A DNA stretch of 52,397 nucleotides. Source: Oscillospiraceae bacterium (GTDB taxonomy: Bacteria; Bacillota; Clostridia; Oscillospirales; Oscillospiraceae). Positions within the stretch are counted from its first letter, which is position 1, and each line of letters starts with the position of its first letter. Positions 6,799 to 52,397 of this stretch are shown here, one piece after another. The translations under genes and the position numbers were made by a program. The stretch covers positions 1-52,397 of the forward strand of contig JAFQNL010000040.1 of NCBI GenBank assembly GCA_017395935.1. Reading direction: 5' to 3'. The notes below the pieces were generated by a model. The model was not told the DNA's origin. It did not search any database and saw only the letters and a program-made list of their open reading frames with translations.

Positions 6799-7769
6799 CA
6801 GCTCCGCTGGGTGATATAGGCCACCCAGCCCTCCCGGTCATGGCGCTCAAGAATGGTATAGCCGTTTTCCTTCAGGGTATTGGCCACGTCTTCGGCCCGG
6901 TGCTCGATAATACCGGAGGTGAGGAACTTGCCGCCCGGGGCCAGAAAGTCCTTGACGTAAGGGATCAGGGGAATGATCACGTCAGGGATAATATTGGCAA
7001 GAACCAGATCGTAGCATCCGGCCAGCTTCTCCCGCAAGCCGTCGTCACCGATCACATCGCCGGTCTCCACCCGGAACTGGCTGGAAATACCGTTATAGGA
7101 GGCGTTCTCGGCAGCCACCCGGCTGGCCTTGGGATCAATATCGCAGCCCACTGCCTCGCTGGCGCCCAGCAGGATGGCGGCAATGGAGAGAATACCGCTG
7201 CCGGTACCCAGATCCAGCACCCGATCTCCCTCTTTCGCAAAGCGCTCCACGCCCTCCAGACAGAGGCGGGTCGTGCCGTGGGAACCGGTACCGAAAATAA
7301 GGCCGGGATTGAGGATCATGGCGGTCCGTCCCTCCGGCACCTCCATCTCCCGCATCCACTCGGGGACCACATAGAGCTTCTCTCCCACCGGGAAGGGCTG
7401 ATAGTACTTCTGCCAGTTATGGGCCCAGTCCTCCTCCCGGAGGCTGACAGTGGAGACGGCCAGACTGCCGCAGTCCTTACCCACCCGGTCCCGGAAGGCG
7501 GGCAGGCCGGCCTTTACCTCCTCCAGCCGGGCATGGCCGTCCTCGTCGTCGGTGACGTAGAACTTGACCCGGGAGAGGCCCTTGAACGAGTCCTTGAACT
7601 CCTCGTCGATCTCCGACCAGCAGGCCTGCTGCTCGTCTTCAAACTGCTCCAGATCGTTCTCGTCCTCAATGACCAGACCTACGATTCCCCGGGCGGTGAG
7701 ATAGGCGGCCACGTCATCCAGACAGGGGGAGACGGTATCAATTCGGACTTCCAGCCAGGTTTCATACAT
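6798..7769 (-). CDS. prmA: Ribosomal protein L11 methyltransferase
   Basis: A 323-residue S-adenosylmethionine-dependent methyltransferase that trimethylates L11. The N-terminal substrate-recognition domain (residues 1 to about 90) is followed by the Rossmann-like catalytic domain, with SAM-binding motif VLDLGTGSGILSIAA near 184-198. The PrmA signatures PGLIFGTGSHGTTRLCL (about 155-171) and LANIIPDVI are present. GAGGT sits 8 bases before the ATG. It lies in a leftward operon with the CPBP protease upstream (30-bp gap) and tadA downstream (1-bp overlap). Confidence 0.95.
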   Translation of the reverse strand: MYETWLEVRIDTVSPCLDDVAAYLTARGIVGLVIEDENDLEQFEDEQQACWSEIDEEFKDSFKGLSRVKFYVTDDEDGHARLEEVKAGLPAFRDRVGKDCGSLAVSTVSLREEDWAHNWQKYYQPFPVGEKLYVVPEWMREMEVPEGRTAMILNPGLIFGTGSHGTTRLCLEGVERFAKEGDRVLDLGTGSGILSIAAILLGASEAVGCDIDPKASRVAAENASYNGISSQFRVETGDVIGDDGLREKLAGCYDLVLANIIPDVIIPLIPYVKDFLAPGGKFLTSGIIEHRAEDVANTLKENGYTILERHDREGWVAYITQRS

Positions 7770-45839: not shown

Positions 45840-45860
45840 GATTCCAGTCTGAGACAGCGG

Positions 45861-45881
45861 CTATGCCGTCAGGGTGGCAGT
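45861..45881. repeat. Truncated copy (last 21 bp) of the 75-bp two-hairpin element
   Basis: Identical to the last 21 bp of the full elements (CTATGCCGTCAGGG then TGGCAGT). The left part is replaced by unrelated sequence. It is followed by the same 34-bp spacer as the next copy. Confidence 0.85.
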
Positions 45882-45915
45882 ACTTGTTACTGGGAATCTA
45901 ACTTCAATACTGCCA

Positions 45916-45990
45916 CCGCAGCGTTAAGAAAATATGCCGGTGGCATATTTTTAGCGTAGGCCCTGACGGCTATGCCGTCAGGGTGGCAGT
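45916..45990. repeat. 75-bp two-hairpin element, copy 1 (after lepA)
   Basis: The element begins CCGCAGCGTTAAG and ends GGGTGGCAGT. Hairpin I is AAAATATGCC-GGT-GGCATATTTT; hairpin II is CCCTGACGG-CTATG-CCGTCAGGG. It is separated from copy 2 by 34 bp that repeat the last codons of lepA; the full period is 109 bp. Confidence 0.95.
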
Positions 45991-46024
45991 ACTTGTTACT
46001 GGGAATCCAACTTCAATACTGCCA

Positions 46025-46099
46025 CCGCAGCGTTAAGAAAACGTGCCGGGGGCACGTTTTTAGCGTAGGCCCTGACGGCTATGCCGTCAGGGTGGCAGT
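46025..46099. repeat. 75-bp two-hairpin element, copy 2 (adjoining lepA)
   Basis: It differs from copy 1 only within hairpin I: stem bases TA and the opposing TA both become CG, keeping every pair (AAAACGTGCC-GGG-GGCACGTTTT), plus the loop. It ends 5 bp before the lepA stop codon's last base, so the lepA tail forms the next spacer. T-rich ends on both sides of hairpin I make it a plausible bidirectional terminator. Confidence 0.95.
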
Positions 46100-46104
46100 A
46101 CTTG

Positions 46105-47910
46105 TTACTGGGAATCTAACTTCAATACTGCCATGAACGCCTCGGTAGAGAGCTGAACGGTGCCCAGAGAGCGCATCTTCTTCTTTCCTCGCTTCTGCTT
46201 TTCCAGCAGCTTCTTCTTACGGGTGATATCGCCGCCGTAGCACTTGGCCAGAACGTCCTTCCGGACCGCCTTAACCGTCTCACGGGCGATAATCTTGCCG
46301 CCGATGGCCGCCTGAATGGGCACTTCGAACTGCTGTCGGGAGATATTCTCCTTCAGCTTCTCGCAGATCCGGCGGGCTCTGGCGTAGGCGTTGTCCTTAT
46401 GGGCGATAAAGCTGAGCGCGTCCACCTTGTCGCCGTTGAGGAGCAGATCCACCTTGACCAGATTACTGGGCTTGTACTCGCCCAGCTCATAGTCCAGAGA
46501 GGCGTAGCCTTTGGTATTGGCCTTGAGGGTATCGAAGAAGTCGTAAATGGTCTCGTTGAGGGGCATGGAGTAGTGGAGCTCCACCAGCTTGGAGTCCAGA
46601 TACTGCATATCCTTATACTCACCCCGGCGATTCTGGCAGATGGGCATAATATCGCCCACATAGTCGTTGGGGGTAATAATGGTCACGTTGACATAGGGCT
46701 CCTGGGCGTCCTTAATGGTGCCGGGATCGGGGTAGTTATGGGGGTTGTCCACCCGGATTACAGTGCCGTCGGTCTTGGTCACGTTATAGATAACGTTGGG
46801 CAGGGTGGTGACCAGATCCAGATCGAACTCCCGCTCCAGACGCTCCTGAATGACCTCCATATGGAGCAGGCCCAAAAAGCCGCAGCGGAAGCCAAAGCCC
46901 AGAGCGGCCGAGCTCTCCGGCTCAAAGACCAGAGAGGCGTCGTTGAGCTGGAGCTTTTCCAGTGCCTCCCGGAGATCGGGATACTTGGAGCCGTCCTCGG
47001 TATAGATACCGCAGTAAACCATGGGCTGGGCGGGCCGGTAGCCGGGAAGGGGCTCGGAGATGGGATTGGCGGCGGAGGTGACGGTATCGCCTACGCTGGT
47101 ATCCCGGACGTTTTTAATGCTGGCGGTGAAGTAGCCTACCTCGCCGGCGGTCAGCTCGCCGCAGGGGTCCATGCCGATGGGGAGCAGATGGCCGCATTCC
47201 AGTACCTTATAGGTGGCGCCGGAGGCCATCATCTTGACCTCGTCGCCCACCTTCAGCTTGCCGTCCATGAGCCGGACCAGCACCACAACGCCCTTATAGG
47301 CGTCGTATTGGCTGTCAAAGATAAGGGCCTTCAGGGGCGCGTCGGGGTCGCCGGAGGGGGCGGGGATATTGGCCACAATATCGTCCAGCACGGCGGGGAT
47401 ATTGATACCCGCCTTGGCGGAGATCTCCGGAGCGTCCTCGGCGGGCAGGCCGATAATATTCTCCACTTCCTCCTTCACCCGCTTGGGGTCGGCGGCAGGC
47501 AGGTCGATCTTATTGATAACCGGCAGGATCTCCAGCTCATGCTCCAGAGCCAGATAGGTATTGGCCAGCGTCTGGGCCTCAACGCCCTGACTGGCGTCCA
47601 CCACCAGAACCGCGCCCTCACAGGCGGCCAGAGAGCGGCTGACCTCATAGTTGAAGTCCACGTGGCCCGGGGTGTCGATCAGGTTGAGCAGGTACTCTTC
47701 CCCGTCAGGGGCGGTGTAGTTGAGGGTAATGGCCCGGGCCTTGATGGTAATACCCCGCTCCTGCTCCAGCTCCATATTGTCCAGCAGCTGGCTGGACATC
47801 TCACGTTCGGAGACAGCGCCGCAGAGCTCAATCAGCCGGTCTGACAGCGTGGATTTACCGTGGTCAATGTGGGCGATAATGGAGAAATTACGAATGTTGC
47901 TTTGTTTCAT
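46105..47910 (-). CDS. lepA: Elongation factor 4 (LepA)
   Basis: A 601-residue translational GTPase. G1 is [21 protein letters not shown]3 [20 protein letters not shown] and G4 [10 protein letters not shown]. The LepA-specific C-terminal domain follows ([60 protein letters not shown]). The usual C-terminal end is present but the final residues KLDSQ lie within the 34-bp segment that is also repeated between downstream 75-bp elements, so the element probably inserted at or near the stop codon. It back-translocates or remodels stalled ribosomes; precise role is debated. Confidence 0.96.
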
Positions 47911-48037
47911 AACAGCACTCCTAAATAATAATAGGCAAGCGATCCGCTCTGTCGGTGGGGCGTACAGGCTGTATGGGCAGTAAACTCCTGCCGCGGGCGG
48001 AGTTTGGCTCCGCCGGGAAAGAAAAGGGGGACCGGTC

Positions 48038-48736
48038 TCAGAATCCCTTCTTCCGGACCAGAGCGTCCTCGCTCAGATGGCCGGCAATCCGCCGGCTGCA
48101 CTCTTCGCTCAGCTCCAGAAAGACGGGATAGGAGGCCGGATAGTCCCGGGCCAGAGTCTCCTCCGACAGGTCGGGGAAGGGTCGGGACTGAAGACTGTGG
48201 TTGGTCAGTTCCAGATCGTACCGGCTCCGGCAGAGCTGGAGTTCAGCCTCGGCCAGACCAGCCTGAAAGGCCTCGTCGGGCAGAGAGGGCAGGGGCCGGT
48301 TCTCAGAGATACCGGCCGTCAGGCGGAGCCGGCGGATCAGCTGATAGAGTCCGGTGGACAGATAGCGGCTGGCAGCGTTGAGCAGACTGGGATTTTCCGT
48401 CCGGCTGAGCAGGTCGAAAAAGAGGACCAGAGAGCTGATAATGGGCTTGGAGGCGGAGGCGGCCTGACGGCGCTCCCGGGCCCGGTCGGAGAGAAGGGTG
48501 GTGGGCGCCTGAACAACGATACCGTCCCGGTCCATGGTCCGGCCCAGCAGATAGTCGGCGCTGACATGGTAAAAGTCACAGGCCCGGGTGACAAACTGGA
48601 GACCGGGCTCCCGGATTCCGTTTTCATAGTGGCTGAGCAGAGCCTGGCTGATCCCCAGTGCCTCGGCGGCAGCCCGCTGGCTGATTTTCTTCTCCCGGCG
48701 GAGCTGGGAGAGAGTACGGCCAAAATCCTGATTCAT
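48038..48736 (-). CDS. XRE-family helix-turn-helix regulator
   Basis: A 232-residue protein. Residues 1-65 form a Cro/C1-type DNA-binding domain ([25 protein letters not shown] is the recognition part, read as two segments), followed by [14 protein letters not shown]. The remaining 165 residues are mostly helical with no domain I recognise, perhaps for dimerisation or sensing. Ribosome-site GAGGAG lies 13 bases upstream of the ATG, and TATAAT overlaps the start region, so the transcript may have a very short leader. It lies just upstream of lepA in the same direction, without a shared function being evident. Confidence 0.82.
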
Positions 48737-49097
48737 ATTATATCATGCACTCCTCGTGTTTGAAAACAAGTGAACTAGAAAAAACGCGGCCCCTTTTCCA
48801 ACCTGTCTCCCAGAGTCAGCCCCACAGGAAAAGCAGGGAAAAAAAGACCGGATAATCTGGCATCGGGGAAAGAATATCTCTCCCCCGCCGAAAAACGAAC
48901 AGTAATATGATAACCAACTGTATTCAAAAAAGCAAGAAGAAGTTTGTTCTGATGCTCGTTAAAAAGTTATCAAGTTACATTTGAACAAAAGAGAGCTATA
49001 ACCTATTGCAATTTTTAGAGAGAAGTGATAAATTTATAGGAGACTATGTCCGCGCAGACTCTGTGCGAATGCAAAATACTGTTAGGAGGTAACTGAC
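48737..49097 (+). promoter_or_regulatory. A/T-rich divergent region between the XRE gene and pta
   Basis: No gene is seen. It is clearly A/T-richer than the flanking genes. For pta a weak promoter, TTGCAA (49006-49011), 17 bases, TAAATT (49029-49034), is possible. No palindrome or repeat of note was found, apart from an A-rich tract near 48925-48945. Confidence 0.4.
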
Positions 49098-50090
49098 ATG
49101 GCATTTGGTTTCGGTTCCATGATCGCTCAGCTGAAGAAAAACCCCAAGACTATCGTATTTACCGAGGGTACTGACCCCCGTATTCTGGAGGCTTCCTCCC
49201 GTCTGCTGGCCAGCACCTTCCTCACCCCCATCCTCATCGGTAAGGCAGAGGATATCTTCAGCGCCGCCGAAGAGGCTGGCTATAATGTCCGCGGTGCCAC
49301 CATTATTGACCCGGAAAACTATGACCGGTTCGACGAGATGGTAGAGATTTTCTGCCAGCTGCGCAAGAGCAAGGGCATGACCCCTGAGAAGGCCGCCCCC
49401 ATCCTCCGTCAGGCCAACTACTTCGGTACCATGCTGGTCAAGATGGGCGTTGCCGACTCCCTGCTGGGCGGCGCTACTTATTCTACCGCCGATACCGTCC
49501 GTCCCGCTCTGCAGATCATCAAGACTAAGCCCGGCTATGAGAGCGTCTCCTCCTGCTTCATTCTGGTCCGTGCTTCCGCCTCCGGTGAGAACGAGGTTCT
49601 GGCCTTTGGTGACTGCGCCATCAATATCCATCCCACTGCCAAGCAGATCGCTGAGACCGGCGTCTACTGCGCCGAGTGCGGCAAGATCTTCGGTATTGAT
49701 CCCAAGGTGGCCTTCCTGAGCTTCTCCACCCACGGCTCCGGCAAGGACCCTGACGTGGACAAGATGCGCGAGGCCACCCGTATGGCCAAGGCCATGGCTC
49801 CTGAACTGGCCATTGACGGCGAGCTCCAGTTTGACGCCGCCGTTTCTCCCCGTGTGGCAATGACCAAGTGCCCCGGCTCCAAGGTGGCCGGCCACGCCAA
49901 CGTCTTCATCTTCCCCGACATCAACGCCGGCAATATCGGCTACAAGATTGCCCAGCGTATGGGTAACTTCGACGCCTATGGCCCCATCCTGCTGGGTCTG
50001 AACGCACCCATCAACGACCTGTCCCGGGGCTGCAACGGTATGGAGGTCTACTCCATGGCCATTATCACCGCCGCTCTGGCCAACCAGTAA
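49098..50090 (+). CDS. pta: Phosphate acetyltransferase
   Basis: A 330-residue enzyme that converts acetyl-CoA and phosphate to acetyl-phosphate, the first step in ATP-yielding acetate formation with acetate kinase. It has the Pta_PTB core: TIVFTEGTDPRILEASSRLL, ADSLLGGATYSTADTVRPAL, SFSTHGSGKDPDVDKMREAT, GELQFDAAVSPRVAMTKCPG and FIFPDINAGNIGYKIAQRMG. The lone short form lacks the N-terminal DRTGG and P-loop domains of E. coli Pta, as usual in Clostridia. AGGAGGT precedes the ATG. No ackA follows. Confidence 0.95.
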   Translation: MAFGFGSMIAQLKKNPKTIVFTEGTDPRILEASSRLLASTFLTPILIGKAEDIFSAAEEAGYNVRGATIIDPENYDRFDEMVEIFCQLRKSKGMTPEKAAPILRQANYFGTMLVKMGVADSLLGGATYSTADTVRPALQIIKTKPGYESVSSCFILVRASASGENEVLAFGDCAINIHPTAKQIAETGVYCAECGKIFGIDPKVAFLSFSTHGSGKDPDVDKMREATRMAKAMAPELAIDGELQFDAAVSPRVAMTKCPGSKVAGHANVFIFPDINAGNIGYKIAQRMGNFDAYGPILLGLNAPINDLSRGCNGMEVYSMAIITAALANQ

Positions 50091-50107
50091 GATCTGTCCT
50101 CTTGTTT

Positions 50108-50141
50108 CGGTGTCCTCCTGTCCGGAGGGCACCGTTTTTTT
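50108..50141 (+). terminator. Terminator after pta
   Basis: CGGTGTCCTCC (50108-50118) pairs with GGAGGGCACCG (50124-50134; one G-U), then T7. Confidence 0.9.
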
Positions 50142-50157
50142 GCGCCCCGGCCCGGAA

Positions 50158-50201
50158 CGAAAGAAGGGGAGACAGCCGGTCAGAGATCGACTGTCTCCCC
50201 C
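50158..50201 (-). terminator. Terminator after the HD-domain gene
   Basis: Stem GGGGAGACAG (50167-50176) with CTGTCTCCCC (50192-50201); the minus strand continues TTCTTTC. Confidence 0.72.
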
Positions 50202-50230
50202 AGAGGGCAGGGACATGGATGGGAGCGGGC

Positions 50231-50812
50231 TCAGGCCTCGCCCTCCAGAAAATAGGTGGCCTCCATATCGGCAACCGACAGGGCAAAGGCCAGGGGATAC
50301 ATCTGGAAGGCCTTGCCCACGGCGTTCTTCTCCTCGCTGCCGGAGAAACCCATATGATAGCGGATGGCAAAGGCCTCCTCCCGGGTCAGACGGAGAAAGC
50401 CGTTGACCACGTAGACGCTCTTCTCCCCGTGGCCATAGGGCATGGGGTCTTCAAACTGGTAGGAGGGGACCTGAGTCCAGCGTCCGTCCTCCCCCTTGAC
50501 GTTGCGCATGGTCTGCTTATAGCAGCCGATCTTGCACAGGTCATGGAGCAGGGCGACGATGGCGATCGACTCCTCCGAATACTCCAGGCCGTAGAGCTCG
50601 GCTACCCGCTCCCGGCAGAGATAGTCGGACAGACAGTGGTAGACGTTCAGACTGTGCTCGCAGAGACCGCCCTCGTAGGCCCCATGATACCGGGCGGAGG
50701 CAGGGGCGGTAAAAAAGTCGCTCTTATTGCACAGATAGTCCAGCAGAGCGTCAGCGCCCTTGCGCTGGATCTTCTCCTGAAAGATTTCGATAAATTCTTC
50801 CTTGCAGGACAT
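50231..50812 (-). CDS. HD-domain protein, probable phosphohydrolase
   Basis: A 193-residue protein with an HD-type metal-binding site: HGAYEGGLCEHSLNVYHCLS contributes the first histidine region and IVALLHDLCKIGCYK the HD pair, with a further His in GHGEKSVYVVNGFLRLTREE and in IRYHMGFSG. This matches the metal-dependent HD phosphohydrolase layout (nucleotide or cyclic-dinucleotide phosphatases). The target nucleotide is not readable. ATG 50812 has AAGGAGG about 8 bases upstream. It has its own extended -10 promoter and terminator, so it is monocistronic. Confidence 0.8.
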   Translation of the reverse strand: MSCKEEFIEIFQEKIQRKGADALLDYLCNKSDFFTAPASARYHGAYEGGLCEHSLNVYHCLSDYLCRERVAELYGLEYSEESIAIVALLHDLCKIGCYKQTMRNVKGEDGRWTQVPSYQFEDPMPYGHGEKSVYVVNGFLRLTREEAFAIRYHMGFSGSEEKNAVGKAFQMYPLAFALSVADMEATYFLEGEA

Positions 50813-50844
50813 GATACTTGTCCTCCTTTTTTGATTCTGCCCCG

Positions 50845-50853
50845 ATTATAGCA
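50845..50853 (-). promoter_or_regulatory. Extended -10 promoter for the HD-domain gene
   Basis: TGC-TATAAT on the minus strand (50853-50845), inside the 16-mer GAAAGTATGCTATAAT shared with the AraC-family gene's promoter. The -35 region (CTGTCA, 18 bp upstream) is poor. Confidence 0.55.
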
Positions 50854-50988
50854 TACTTTCCGTCCCATTGACAGGACAGACCGGCTATTTTTCCCCCATA
50901 TTTTCCATCTCTCCGGCTCTTTTCTTCTCTGGCGGGCCGTGGTATACTATATAGGCTGAGAACTTATGCCACGGAAGTGATGATATAC

Positions 50989-51714
50989 ATGAAAAAGACC
51001 CTGCGCGCCCTGATCCCCCTCTTTCTGGGTCTGATCTGCGGGCTCTTTCGCCGGACCATCTGGAGCGTTACCTATGACCCGGCTACCCAGCTGATCACCG
51101 AGCCAGAGCTCCCCGGTCTGTCCCACGGGCTGATGGTGGTGTCAGTGCTTATTGTGGTGCTGCTGGTGATCAAGAACTGGCCGGAGGGCCGGGAGATGGC
51201 GTCCCCCTACCCTGCCCGAACCCCCTTCCATAGAATCTGCCGGCTGGCGGCCGGCGGGATTGGGCTGGTGTCCGGCCTGATGATGGGGGCAGAGCAGCTC
51301 TCCCATCAGCCTCTGGCCCTGATCGCCCTGCTCATGTGCCTGTTTCAGACGGCGGCCGGCGGGTCAATGGTGCTGATGGGACTGGACCGGAAGGCGAAGG
51401 GGAAGAACTATTCCACGCTGCTGCTGGTGCCCTCCTTCTGCTGCTGCTACTGGATGGTGGCATTTTACCATGTCTTTGGCTCCCATCCCCATGCCGAAAC
51501 CTATCTGTACCCCATTCTGGCCGGTATTCTGGTCATGTTCTGCTGGATCTTCTATGCCGGATTCCACTTCCGGCCGGGAGAGAGCCGGAAGTTTGCTCTG
51601 GCCTGGGCGCTGCTCATGCTGGTCATGCCCTCCGCCCTCACCGCTCCTCTCACCATCCCCTATCAGCTCAGTCTGCTGGCCCAGCTGGTCTGGTTCCTGC
51701 CGGTTATGATCTGA
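50989..51714 (+). CDS. Integral membrane protein of unknown function
   Basis: A 241-residue protein with about seven membrane helices; I chose ATG 50989 (MKKTLRALIPLFLGLICGLF), though an ATG nine bases earlier is possible. The helices are near residues 6-22, 50-66, 88-103, 112-130, 143-165, 172-190 and 200-240. The cysteine run FCCCYWMVAFYHVFG in the fifth helix and a short periplasmic His-rich loop (GSHPHAETYLY) are notable. It resembles proteins annotated only as hypothetical in Oscillospirales, by recollection. It has its own terminator. Confidence 0.6.
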   Translation: MKKTLRALIPLFLGLICGLFRRTIWSVTYDPATQLITEPELPGLSHGLMVVSVLIVVLLVIKNWPEGREMASPYPARTPFHRICRLAAGGIGLVSGLMMGAEQLSHQPLALIALLMCLFQTAAGGSMVLMGLDRKAKGKNYSTLLLVPSFCCCYWMVAFYHVFGSHPHAETYLYPILAGILVMFCWIFYAGFHFRPGESRKFALAWALLMLVMPSALTAPLTIPYQLSLLAQLVWFLPVMI

Positions 51715-51734
51715 AGAGACGTGAAGCCTGTTCA

Positions 51735-51768
51735 GCCGCCCTCCTTTCCGGAGGGCGGCTTGTTTTTT
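51735..51768 (+). terminator. Terminator after the membrane protein
   Basis: GCCGCCCTCC (51735-51744) pairs with GGAGGGCGGC (51750-51759), followed by TTGTTTTTT. Confidence 0.88.
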
Positions 51769-51813
51769 GGAGGGAAGTCAGGTTGGGATGCCCGTCTTGA
51801 GGTCTGGTCAGAA

Positions 51814-51845
51814 GAGAAAAAGGGCACTCCCGAAGGAGTGCCCTT
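51814..51845 (-). terminator. Terminator A (outer copy), downstream of the gap remnant
   Basis: AAGGGCACTCC (51820-51830) pairs with GGAGTGCCCTT (51835-51845), loop CGAA; minus strand T-rich tail. Its stem differs from the copy at 52045-52070 but its surroundings are similar. Confidence 0.85.
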
Positions 51846-51850
51846 GAAAA

Positions 51851-51902
51851 CGCTATACCTAACAGTACGGCAAAGACTTGGAGATTAGCCCAGCTCAGCG
51901 AA
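51851..51902. repeat. Diverged duplicate of the gap 3' end and untranslated region
   Basis: The last 19 bases (51884-51902) are identical to the gap 3' end at 52110-52128. The 33 bases before them are similar to 52076-52109 with substitutions and short gaps. It looks like the end of a second gap copy or of a duplicated 3' region. Confidence 0.75.
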
Positions 51903-51977
51903 CCGCAGCGTAAAGAAAACGTGCCGGGGGCACGTTTTTAGCGTAGGCCCCGGCGTCCTAACCGCCGGGGTGGCAGT
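51903..51977. repeat. 75-bp two-hairpin element, copy 3 (near gap)
   Basis: Same length and framework as the two lepA copies. Hairpin I equals that of copy 2. Hairpin II is CCCCGGCG-TCCTAAC-CGCCGGGG, in which two pairs (T-A and A-T) of copies 1 and 2 are replaced by C-G and G-C. It abuts the duplicated gap tail. Confidence 0.93.
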
Positions 51978-52044: not shown

Positions 52045-52070
52045 AGCGCCACCCCTTTTGGGGTGGCGCT
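52045..52070 (-). terminator. Terminator B, proper terminator of gap
   Basis: AGCGCCACCCC (52045-52055) pairs with GGGGTGGCGCT (52060-52070), loop TTTT; the minus strand continues TTTTC. It stands 41 bp after the gap stop. Confidence 0.88.
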
Positions 52071-52110
52071 GAATTCGCTAAACCTTAGAGGTACAGCACA
52101 GAGCGGTCAA

Positions 52111-52397
52111 TTAGCCCAGCTCAGCGAAGTACTTGATGGTGCGGACCATCTGAGAGGTGTAGGAGTTCTCGTTGTCGTACCAGGAGACGACCTGGACCTG
52201 AGAGGTGCCGTTGTCCATAACGGTGACCATGGTCTGGGTAGCGTCAAACAGGGAGCCGAAACGCATGCCGATGACGTCGGAGGAGACGATCTCGTCGGTG
52301 TTGTAGCCGAAGGACTCGGTAGCGGCAGCCTTCATAGCGGCGTTGATGCCTTCCTTGGTGGCCTCACCCTCGACAACAGCGGTCAGGATGGTGGTGG
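52111..52397 (-). CDS. gap: Glyceraldehyde-3-phosphate dehydrogenase, C-terminal part, runs off the right edge
   Basis: Only the last 95 codons are in the window; the start lies beyond 52397. The visible residues include [40 protein letters not shown] and the catalytic-domain NAD-contact segment [20 protein letters not shown] ending KYFAELG. This is the conserved C-terminus of type I phosphorylating GAPDH. Its 3' end and terminator are partly duplicated downstream. Confidence 0.95.

Follow-up and report, generated by a model that had tools for sequence, protein, structure and literature searches.

The window analysed here, the whole 52,397-nt stretch of contig JAFQNL010000040.1 (positions 1 to 52,397, forward strand; GenBank assembly GCA_017395935.1) from an Oscillospiraceae bacterium, was found to contain three full copies of a short structured element downstream of two genes that we take to be lepA (elongation factor 4) and gap (GAPDH). 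The element has a conserved body composed of hairpin B, a linker and hairpin C with covarying stems, and a variable 5′ arm, and measures approximately 75–110 bp. The balance of the evidence leans, if modestly, towards a non-autonomous mobile hairpin element that inserts with a long duplication of variable length, the resulting gene-end alleles having then spread between species. The insertion part of this reading is supported by duplications of non-coding sequence, and the spread part by synonymous differences between gene ends, by element lineages specific to a target and by one locus (L421) described below.

The 3′ end of the element was sharp, mostly ...CTTNACGCTGCGG, and the 5′ end was variable. 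When the 14-mer starting five bases after ACGC was sought upstream, 36–320 bases before hairpin C, a duplication starting exactly at the element 3′ end was found for 16 of 65 non-redundant copies compared to 6 of 640 cross-locus controls, and for 5 of 35 copies compared to 1 of 341 controls in a second, non-overlapping set. Near-identical copies had been removed from both sets beforehand (98 reduced to 65 and 74 to 35), copies near locus ends were also dropped, and two of the 16 positive copies are the window's own loci. The matches showed no leftward extension in 13 of the 16 cases, an extension of one base in two and of eight bases in one (L187). The clearer duplications ranged from 16 to 103 bp and included parS-like sites, a tRNA end, terminators and gene ends; shorter matches of 11–15 bp are uncertain.

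Gene ends duplicated around the element were found at the same nucleotide in different genera. The lepA junction (A|TGGC) was present beside the element 3′ end in 8 of 400 family genomes (six genera) and the infB junction (A|TGGAGCAG) in 9 of 400 family genomes (five genera), the latter count excluding three chance coding hits (L409, L415 and L416), with which it had stood at 12 places in 11 genomes. Further targets were gap and genes presumed to be those of a HIT-family protein, tpiA and a thiolase. The pattern was also present in an isolate draft of F. plautii (L364) and in genome G148 (L213); metagenome assemblies are among the sources of the remaining cases. In 17 of 17 lepA, infB, tpiA and HIT loci with other sequence after the second end, homology was shown to stop 0–3 bases past the stop codon, a hand count that leaves out the tandem arrays (window lepA, L411 and L414) and includes some loci from related species. 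At the thiolase and gap, gene-end homology continues through the terminator.

Comparison of the two gene ends showed 40 synonymous and 3 non-synonymous differences over 21 loci. For the 11 loci that were found without gene-end sequence, the numbers were 20 and 0 (p = 7e-11), compared to the approximately 69% non-synonymous differences expected for a freely decaying relic. Because the copies differ almost only synonymously, plain duplication of the target with a second copy left to decay freely was rejected. Among 23 elements, similarity was 0.778 for the same target in different genera, 0.719 for different targets and 0.732 for different targets within the same genus; this comparison omits L407 and L418, which have no hairpin C, and L424, which has another hairpin C tip, all three missed by the regular expression. 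Within genus g66, three species contain the same lepA element, and L421 shows a different downstream flank and gene end compared to L419 and L420; the second lepA end of L419 differs by eight synonymous and no non-synonymous changes.

These observations can be arranged in a model in which an enzyme acting in trans would insert the element with a long target duplication of variable length, and insertions in the last codons of essential genes would survive because the duplication keeps the gene whole. The gene end with its insertion would subsequently be inherited or transferred to other species, the transfer probably taking place through homologous recombination within the conserved coding sequence. 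The functional upstream end would then be that of the donor and the displaced downstream end the old end of the recipient. Selection on the protein would have acted on both, and homology would end with the stop codon since the species share little beyond it. Imported gene ends would thus account for the synonymous-only differences, for homology ending at the stop codon and for the target-specific lineages. In the window, the lepA array may have arisen by repeated insertion or tandem duplication, and gap would carry an older insertion.

A tentative alternative, possible in our judgement, is that the mobile unit comprises the gene end together with the hairpin element. Approximately 110 bp of DNA without a gene would enter an essential gene end of another species and provide it with a new working end, the old one being displaced downstream, and the target-specific lineages (lepA, infB, HIT protein and tpiA) would carry intact, synonymously different last codons and stop.

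Several points weigh against insertion with duplication followed by spread of gene ends. Of the non-redundant copies, 49 of 65 in the first set and 30 of 35 in the second had no duplication detected at the threshold. Three of the 16 positive copies (L198, L201 and L250) are doubtful as target duplications, since their match falls on the tail of a different interspersed repeat, which has 11 occurrences in 15 loci. L241 is without a recognisable second infB end, and non-synonymous differences were found in the long copy of L231 (four), in L407 (two) and in L411 (one). Decayed displaced copies escape the search, by which conserved ones are favoured, and the lepA and infB junction patterns and the protein search favour synonymous variants; therefore, only the independently found loci are decisive. 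Hairpin C has been lost in L407 (infB) and L418 (lepA); hairpin B, the exact 3′ end and the copy of the gene end are retained in both. A donor origin of the upstream end is drawn from few loci, and in L422 donor and recipient are not distinguishable. In the copy-richest genus genomes, the two hairpins form a domain of a larger repeat starting with TTCCTTAGAT, and counts there are therefore not counts of solo insertions. No mover enzyme was found among the Y1 and RVT_1 families searched in the genus genomes. Finally, a different multi-hairpin type is also followed by a gene-end copy at infB (L215 and L364), HIT (L231) and lepA (L070, L302, L431, L438, L441 and L446). Gene-end duplication is accordingly common to different hairpin elements, and its cause may be a host-wide process and not a property of this element.

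The gene-end copy of this second type is longer, approximately 75–90 bases. Over 72–84 bases, synonymous and non-synonymous differences numbered 13:0 in L438, 7:0 in L302, 3:0 in L446, 2:0 in L431, 2:0 in L215, 1:0 in L364 and 13:1 in L441, but 2:4 in L231; L431, L438, L441 and L446 came from the protein search, which is biased towards synonymous copies. The displaced lepA end and terminator of L438 showed two mismatches to the element-free lepA end of G148 (L436), compared to six for the functional end (57 bases, hand count).

Covariation in the stems counts among the evidence for the favoured reading. An alignment of 26 examples, covering hairpin B, linker, hairpin C and a conserved 3′ tail and used to build a covariance model, had standard pairs in 97.9% of pair cells and eight pairs with double changes, and none of 500 shuffles reached its covariation score; hairpin C had been preselected for pairing in this alignment, so that the counts are not independent, and hairpin B had not. 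Two unconstrained stem pairs were both paired in 121 of 121 copies of the named set, with seven combinations, a count free of pairing preselection at those two pairs and made on copies not clustered by similarity. The additional covariation predicted by the initial annotation was thus found. A single G-T was present among these 242 pairs, and such near-absence of wobble would fit constraint or repair at the DNA level as well as, or better than, selection on RNA; a copying mechanism that repairs stems, one of the options raised by the initial annotation, is accordingly possible. The outer arms were shown to pair better than shuffled partners (-18.8 compared to -16.7 kcal/mol, p = 0.0002, 100 copies).

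Rather unlikely, in our estimate, is that the element is a motif with a function in RNA or DNA at the 3′ ends of genes (a terminator, mRNA stabiliser or processing site), spread by ordinary duplication, with the gene-end copies arising by tandem duplication of a 3′ module. The covarying stems would fit such a motif, as would the tandem window array with its period of 109 and the existence of other infB arrays (L411 and L414). The same holds for a sense bias, which also counts for the favoured reading: a left neighbour was present within 350 bases of 76 copies, and 52 of these, but not the other 24, follow a gene in the sense orientation, as judged by a crude open reading frame caller that also placed 41 of 100 elements inside open reading frames of at least 90 codons. 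The location near gene 3′ ends predicted by the initial annotation was thus found. Against a functional motif, the second gene end in L213, L215, L231, L232 and L235 is followed by other sequence and by no further element copy, the bodies are conserved over unrelated sites and genera, and most RNA helices are unlike so wobble-poor a set of stems. A role as 3′ hairpin or terminator is nevertheless plausible, and the element could be a mobile terminator, as the initial annotation suggested. Hairpin C is flanked on either side by A/T tracts and followed by TTTTCTT; a terminator consensus scan gave no site at hairpin C, and sites on the + strand overlapped the edge of hairpin B in copies 1 and 2 and in the truncated copy.

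The element could also be the non-autonomous passenger of a DNA transposase, either of the REP (repetitive extragenic palindromic)/IS200-IS605 type or of an IS1202-group-like type with duplications of 16–28 bp, which we regard as improbable. Several of the duplications found here (16, 20, 22, 23 and 27) lie within the IS1202-group range, and a GTAG equivalent was present in 92 of 169 copies, between the hairpins and adjoining hairpin B, on the other strand. However, duplications reach 103 bp, and no terminal inverted repeats were found at six duplication-defined elements (0–6 of 13–15 positions matching in register). Y1 transposases were matched in 2 of 15 element-positive compared to 5 of 17 element-negative genus genomes and were without a match in the genome of the window (draft genomes), and were rejected as the mover; IS1202-type transposases were not searched for. 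Similarly improbable is SINE-like (short interspersed nuclear element-like) retroposition, in which a structured RNA would be copied by target-primed reverse transcription, which would leave the 3′ end precise and let the 5′ end and the duplications vary: the sharp 3′ boundary, the variable 5′ arm and element length and the variable-length duplications agree with it, but RVT_1 was matched in 5 of 15 element-positive compared to 11 of 17 element-negative genus genomes and was unmatched in the copy-rich G005, G014, G016 and G020 (draft genomes, one Pfam model), and wobble pairs are nearly absent. Since its presence does not track the element, RVT_1 was rejected as the mover, and the lack of a match in those copy-rich genomes speaks against a retroposon moved by it.

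Whether the 5′ arm might act like a guide by pairing with the target was also considered, with mixed results. Pairing was strong at lepA in the window, at the thiolase and at gap, and not at HIT, tpiA, parS or lepA of G096; the permutation p was 0.04 over 14 cases and 0.018 with one case per target, with arms picked by hand.

A number of further observations were made at individual loci. Several elements are located within or next to parS-like sites (TGTTTCA|CGTGAAACA or closely similar sequences), presumably bound by Spo0J, in L005, L155, L209, L210, L214, L307 and L353. The 3′ ends of tRNAs are duplicated around the element at L109 and L095, and in L109 a partial, degenerate tRNA end is located upstream of the element. 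The second multi-hairpin type was seen in L215 (850-1420, -) and L231 (900-1420), in these two with ..GGCGGATTCACTCCGCCCGAG.., and in L364 (-) near 7016; its 5′ arm is complementary to the start of the gene-end copy in L215, L231, L070 and L302. A third type downstream of gap in genus genomes (L036, L040, L045, L048, L051 and L052) consists of a terminator-like hairpin and an A-tract hairpin resembling GTGCCNNNGGCAC. After it comes a partial copy of the gap gene end, in several cases with untranslated region (UTR), and in most a different terminator.

The element was found to be widespread in the family. BLAST with copy 2 gave matches in 15 of 32 genus genomes, and the pattern AAAAANRTGCCNNNGGCAYNTTTT in 22 of 150 family genomes, with 0 for the reversed-pattern control. 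With the covariance model, the positive genomes numbered 15 of 32 in the genus and 33 of 150 in the family, the latter from 29 of 106 genera, with up to 38 copies per genome; six of the 15 positive genus genomes (G013, G015, G019, G023, G026 and G030) are weak matches (E 2.7e-5 to 4.5e-4). An exact pattern scan of genome records matched at least 118 stretches. The 80 matches listed include Flavonifractor, Pseudoflavonifractor, Oscillibacter, Intestinimonas, Evtepia, Galloscillospira, Pelethomonas and other Oscillospiraceae, a few titles giving only Clostridia or Clostridiales, and among them are F. plautii ATCC 29863, Oscillibacter valericigenes An860 and the complete genome CE91-St43. Since the element is present in isolates and in this complete genome, it is not an artefact of metagenome assembly. 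Dispersed copies in related genomes and sites without the element, both anticipated by the initial annotation, were found; in its own genome (2.07 Mb, 46 contigs) BLAST revealed only the three full copies and one truncated copy, and the covariance model the same three. The larger repeat of the copy-rich genomes appears like a miniature inverted-repeat transposable element (MITE), with TTCCTTAGAT at one end (L015-L031, L101 and L121-L145; 14 aligned), and L137 contains CATCTAAGGA further along.

A match to a known family, which would have spoken against a new element, was not obtained: Rfam gave no matches in the window, no family at gathering thresholds in the loci searched (20 loci at E<=1) and no matches in seven loci at E<=0.1. 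A sub-threshold overlap of BcKCsr2 with the element in L106 (E 0.28, 23.9 of 40 bits) was taken as chance. A plasmid search gave one weak match, to a Subdoligranulum record (25% of the query at 79% identity), a phage search with the L114 query gave no match, and a limited search of the open-access literature returned nothing on such an element in Oscillospiraceae.

The three copies in the window had been reported as exactly 75 bp each, with base changes that keep stems paired, and the lengths and positions were confirmed (Table 1; hairpins C and B correspond to hairpins I and II of that description). Copies 1 and 2 differ at five positions, namely two compensated pairs of hairpin C (18/32 and 19/31) and one loop base. 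Copies 2 and 3 differ at ten, including two compensated pairs of hairpin B (49/65 and 51/63) that distinguish copies 1 and 2 from copy 3, five positions at the top of hairpin B (54 and 56–59) and position 10. Pairing is thus maintained at the four compensated pairs, but the changes at the top of hairpin B shorten it from 11 to 9 pairs in copy 3 (+ strand fold). Copies 2 and 3 have an identical hairpin C core, and block exchange within the window therefore explains the pattern as well as repeated compensation does. The degenerate core pattern had three matches in the window and none in 100 shuffles.

The truncated fourth copy and the gene-end copies had been missed by the initial annotation. 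Copies 1 and 2 belong to a tandem array with a period of 109 bp, in which the 34-bp spacer corresponds to the last codons of lepA, the stop and five more bases. On the minus strand, the order is lepA end, element, lepA end, element, lepA end and truncated element. In the infB arrays L411 and L414, an element-like arm directly after the second gene end resembles this array. Copy 3 is located downstream of gap and is followed, on the same strand, by a second gap end with a diverged UTR and terminator, which can still be aligned to those of the functional end (score 76, compared to a maximum of 62 in 500 shuffles).

Table 1. Positions of the element copies, their hairpins and the associated gene ends in the window.
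Feature	Position	Strand	Remarks
Element copy 1, full, 75 bp	45916..45990	-	Covariance model 93.7 bits; copy in training set
Element copy 2, full, 75 bp	46025..46099	-	Covariance model 92.4 bits; copy in training set
Element copy 3, full, 75 bp	51903..51977	-	Covariance model 78.3 bits; copy in training set
Truncated fourth copy (part of hairpin B and 5′ end)	45858..45881	-	BLAST, 24/24 identical to copy 2
Hairpin C core, copy 1	45929..45952	-	AAAAA-NRTGCC-NNN-GGCAYN-TTTT
Hairpin C core, copy 2	46038..46061	-	
Hairpin C core, copy 3	51916..51939	-	
Hairpin B, copy 1	45960..45984	-	11 pairs in + strand fold
Hairpin B, copy 2	46069..46093	-	11 pairs in + strand fold
Hairpin B, copy 3	51947..51971	-	9 pairs in + strand fold
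lepA (presumed elongation factor 4)	46105..47910	-	Host gene of array
lepA 3′ end, functional copy	46100..46133	-	Last codons, stop, 5 nt
lepA 3′ end, second copy	45991..46024	-	One synonymous difference
lepA 3′ end, third copy	45882..45915	-	
gap (presumed GAPDH), C-terminal part	52111..52395	-	Host gene upstream of copy 3
Displaced copy of gap 3′ end	51884..51902	-	19/19 identical to 52110-52128
Terminator-like hairpin after displaced gap end	51820..51845	-	
Terminator-like hairpin after functional gap end	52045..52070	-	

Small palindromic repeats are, to our knowledge, common in bacteria, and the mode of insertion of many of them is not known. In the element described here the junctions can be read: the 3′ end is sharp and the 5′ end varies, the duplications are long, and gene ends are preserved at the protein level on both sides. 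The reuse of the same lepA and infB nucleotide across genera provides fixed test sites. Insertion with duplication followed by spread of gene ends would explain why, in a major group of gut bacteria, housekeeping genes are followed by partial gene ends and terminators, and marks a possible route for the exchange of essential gene ends between species.

MITEs are characterized by terminal inverted repeats and short fixed target duplications, and bcr1 also has a fixed short target duplication. Integrative elements that regenerate the 3′ end of a tRNA or other gene restore the gene end at one junction and leave the old end at the other. The present element resembles them in that a host gene end is regenerated at one junction with the old end at the other; they carry an integrase and kilobases of DNA, whereas approximately 110 bp without a gene are found here. 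Compared to prokaryotic MITEs, the element is similarly short, non-autonomous, structured and variable in copy number (PMC10969869), but it lacks terminal inverted repeats (six elements tested) and its duplication is variable, approximately 16–103 bp, and it was rejected as a MITE on both grounds. The IS1202 group shows target duplications of 16–28 bp, its own transposase and terminal inverted repeats with 5′-TGT ends (PMC10132070). Unusually long target duplications are a shared feature, and some lengths found here fit that range, but the present ends are not inverted repeats, by which a derivative of this group was rejected.

REP and REPIN sequences with RAYT are described as palindromes of 20–40 bp tagged with GTAG or CGTC at one end (PMC3733652; PMC3116915). 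The initial annotation had suggested a REP-like element moved by a transposase in trans, which holds as to kind: both are dispersed palindromic extragenic repeats without coding capacity that are probably moved in trans. It does not hold for REP proper, in which tag, size and Y1 transposase all differ. The present element is 75–110 bp long with two dissimilar hairpins, its GTAG is internal and not invariant (CGTC was not counted), it is associated with long host duplications, and 13 of 15 element-positive genus genomes had no Y1 match. The repeats bcr1–bcr18 of the Bacillus cereus group are interspersed and intergenic; some of them resemble MITEs, some have a conserved secondary structure, and they are partly transcribed in UTRs (PMC3446304). 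The present element is likewise interspersed, intergenic and structured, but belongs to another taxon, and the passages of that source on which we draw mention no gene-end copies for bcr repeats (PMC3446304). In its manner of working, the element resembles interspersed repeats of the REP, MITE or bcr1 type.

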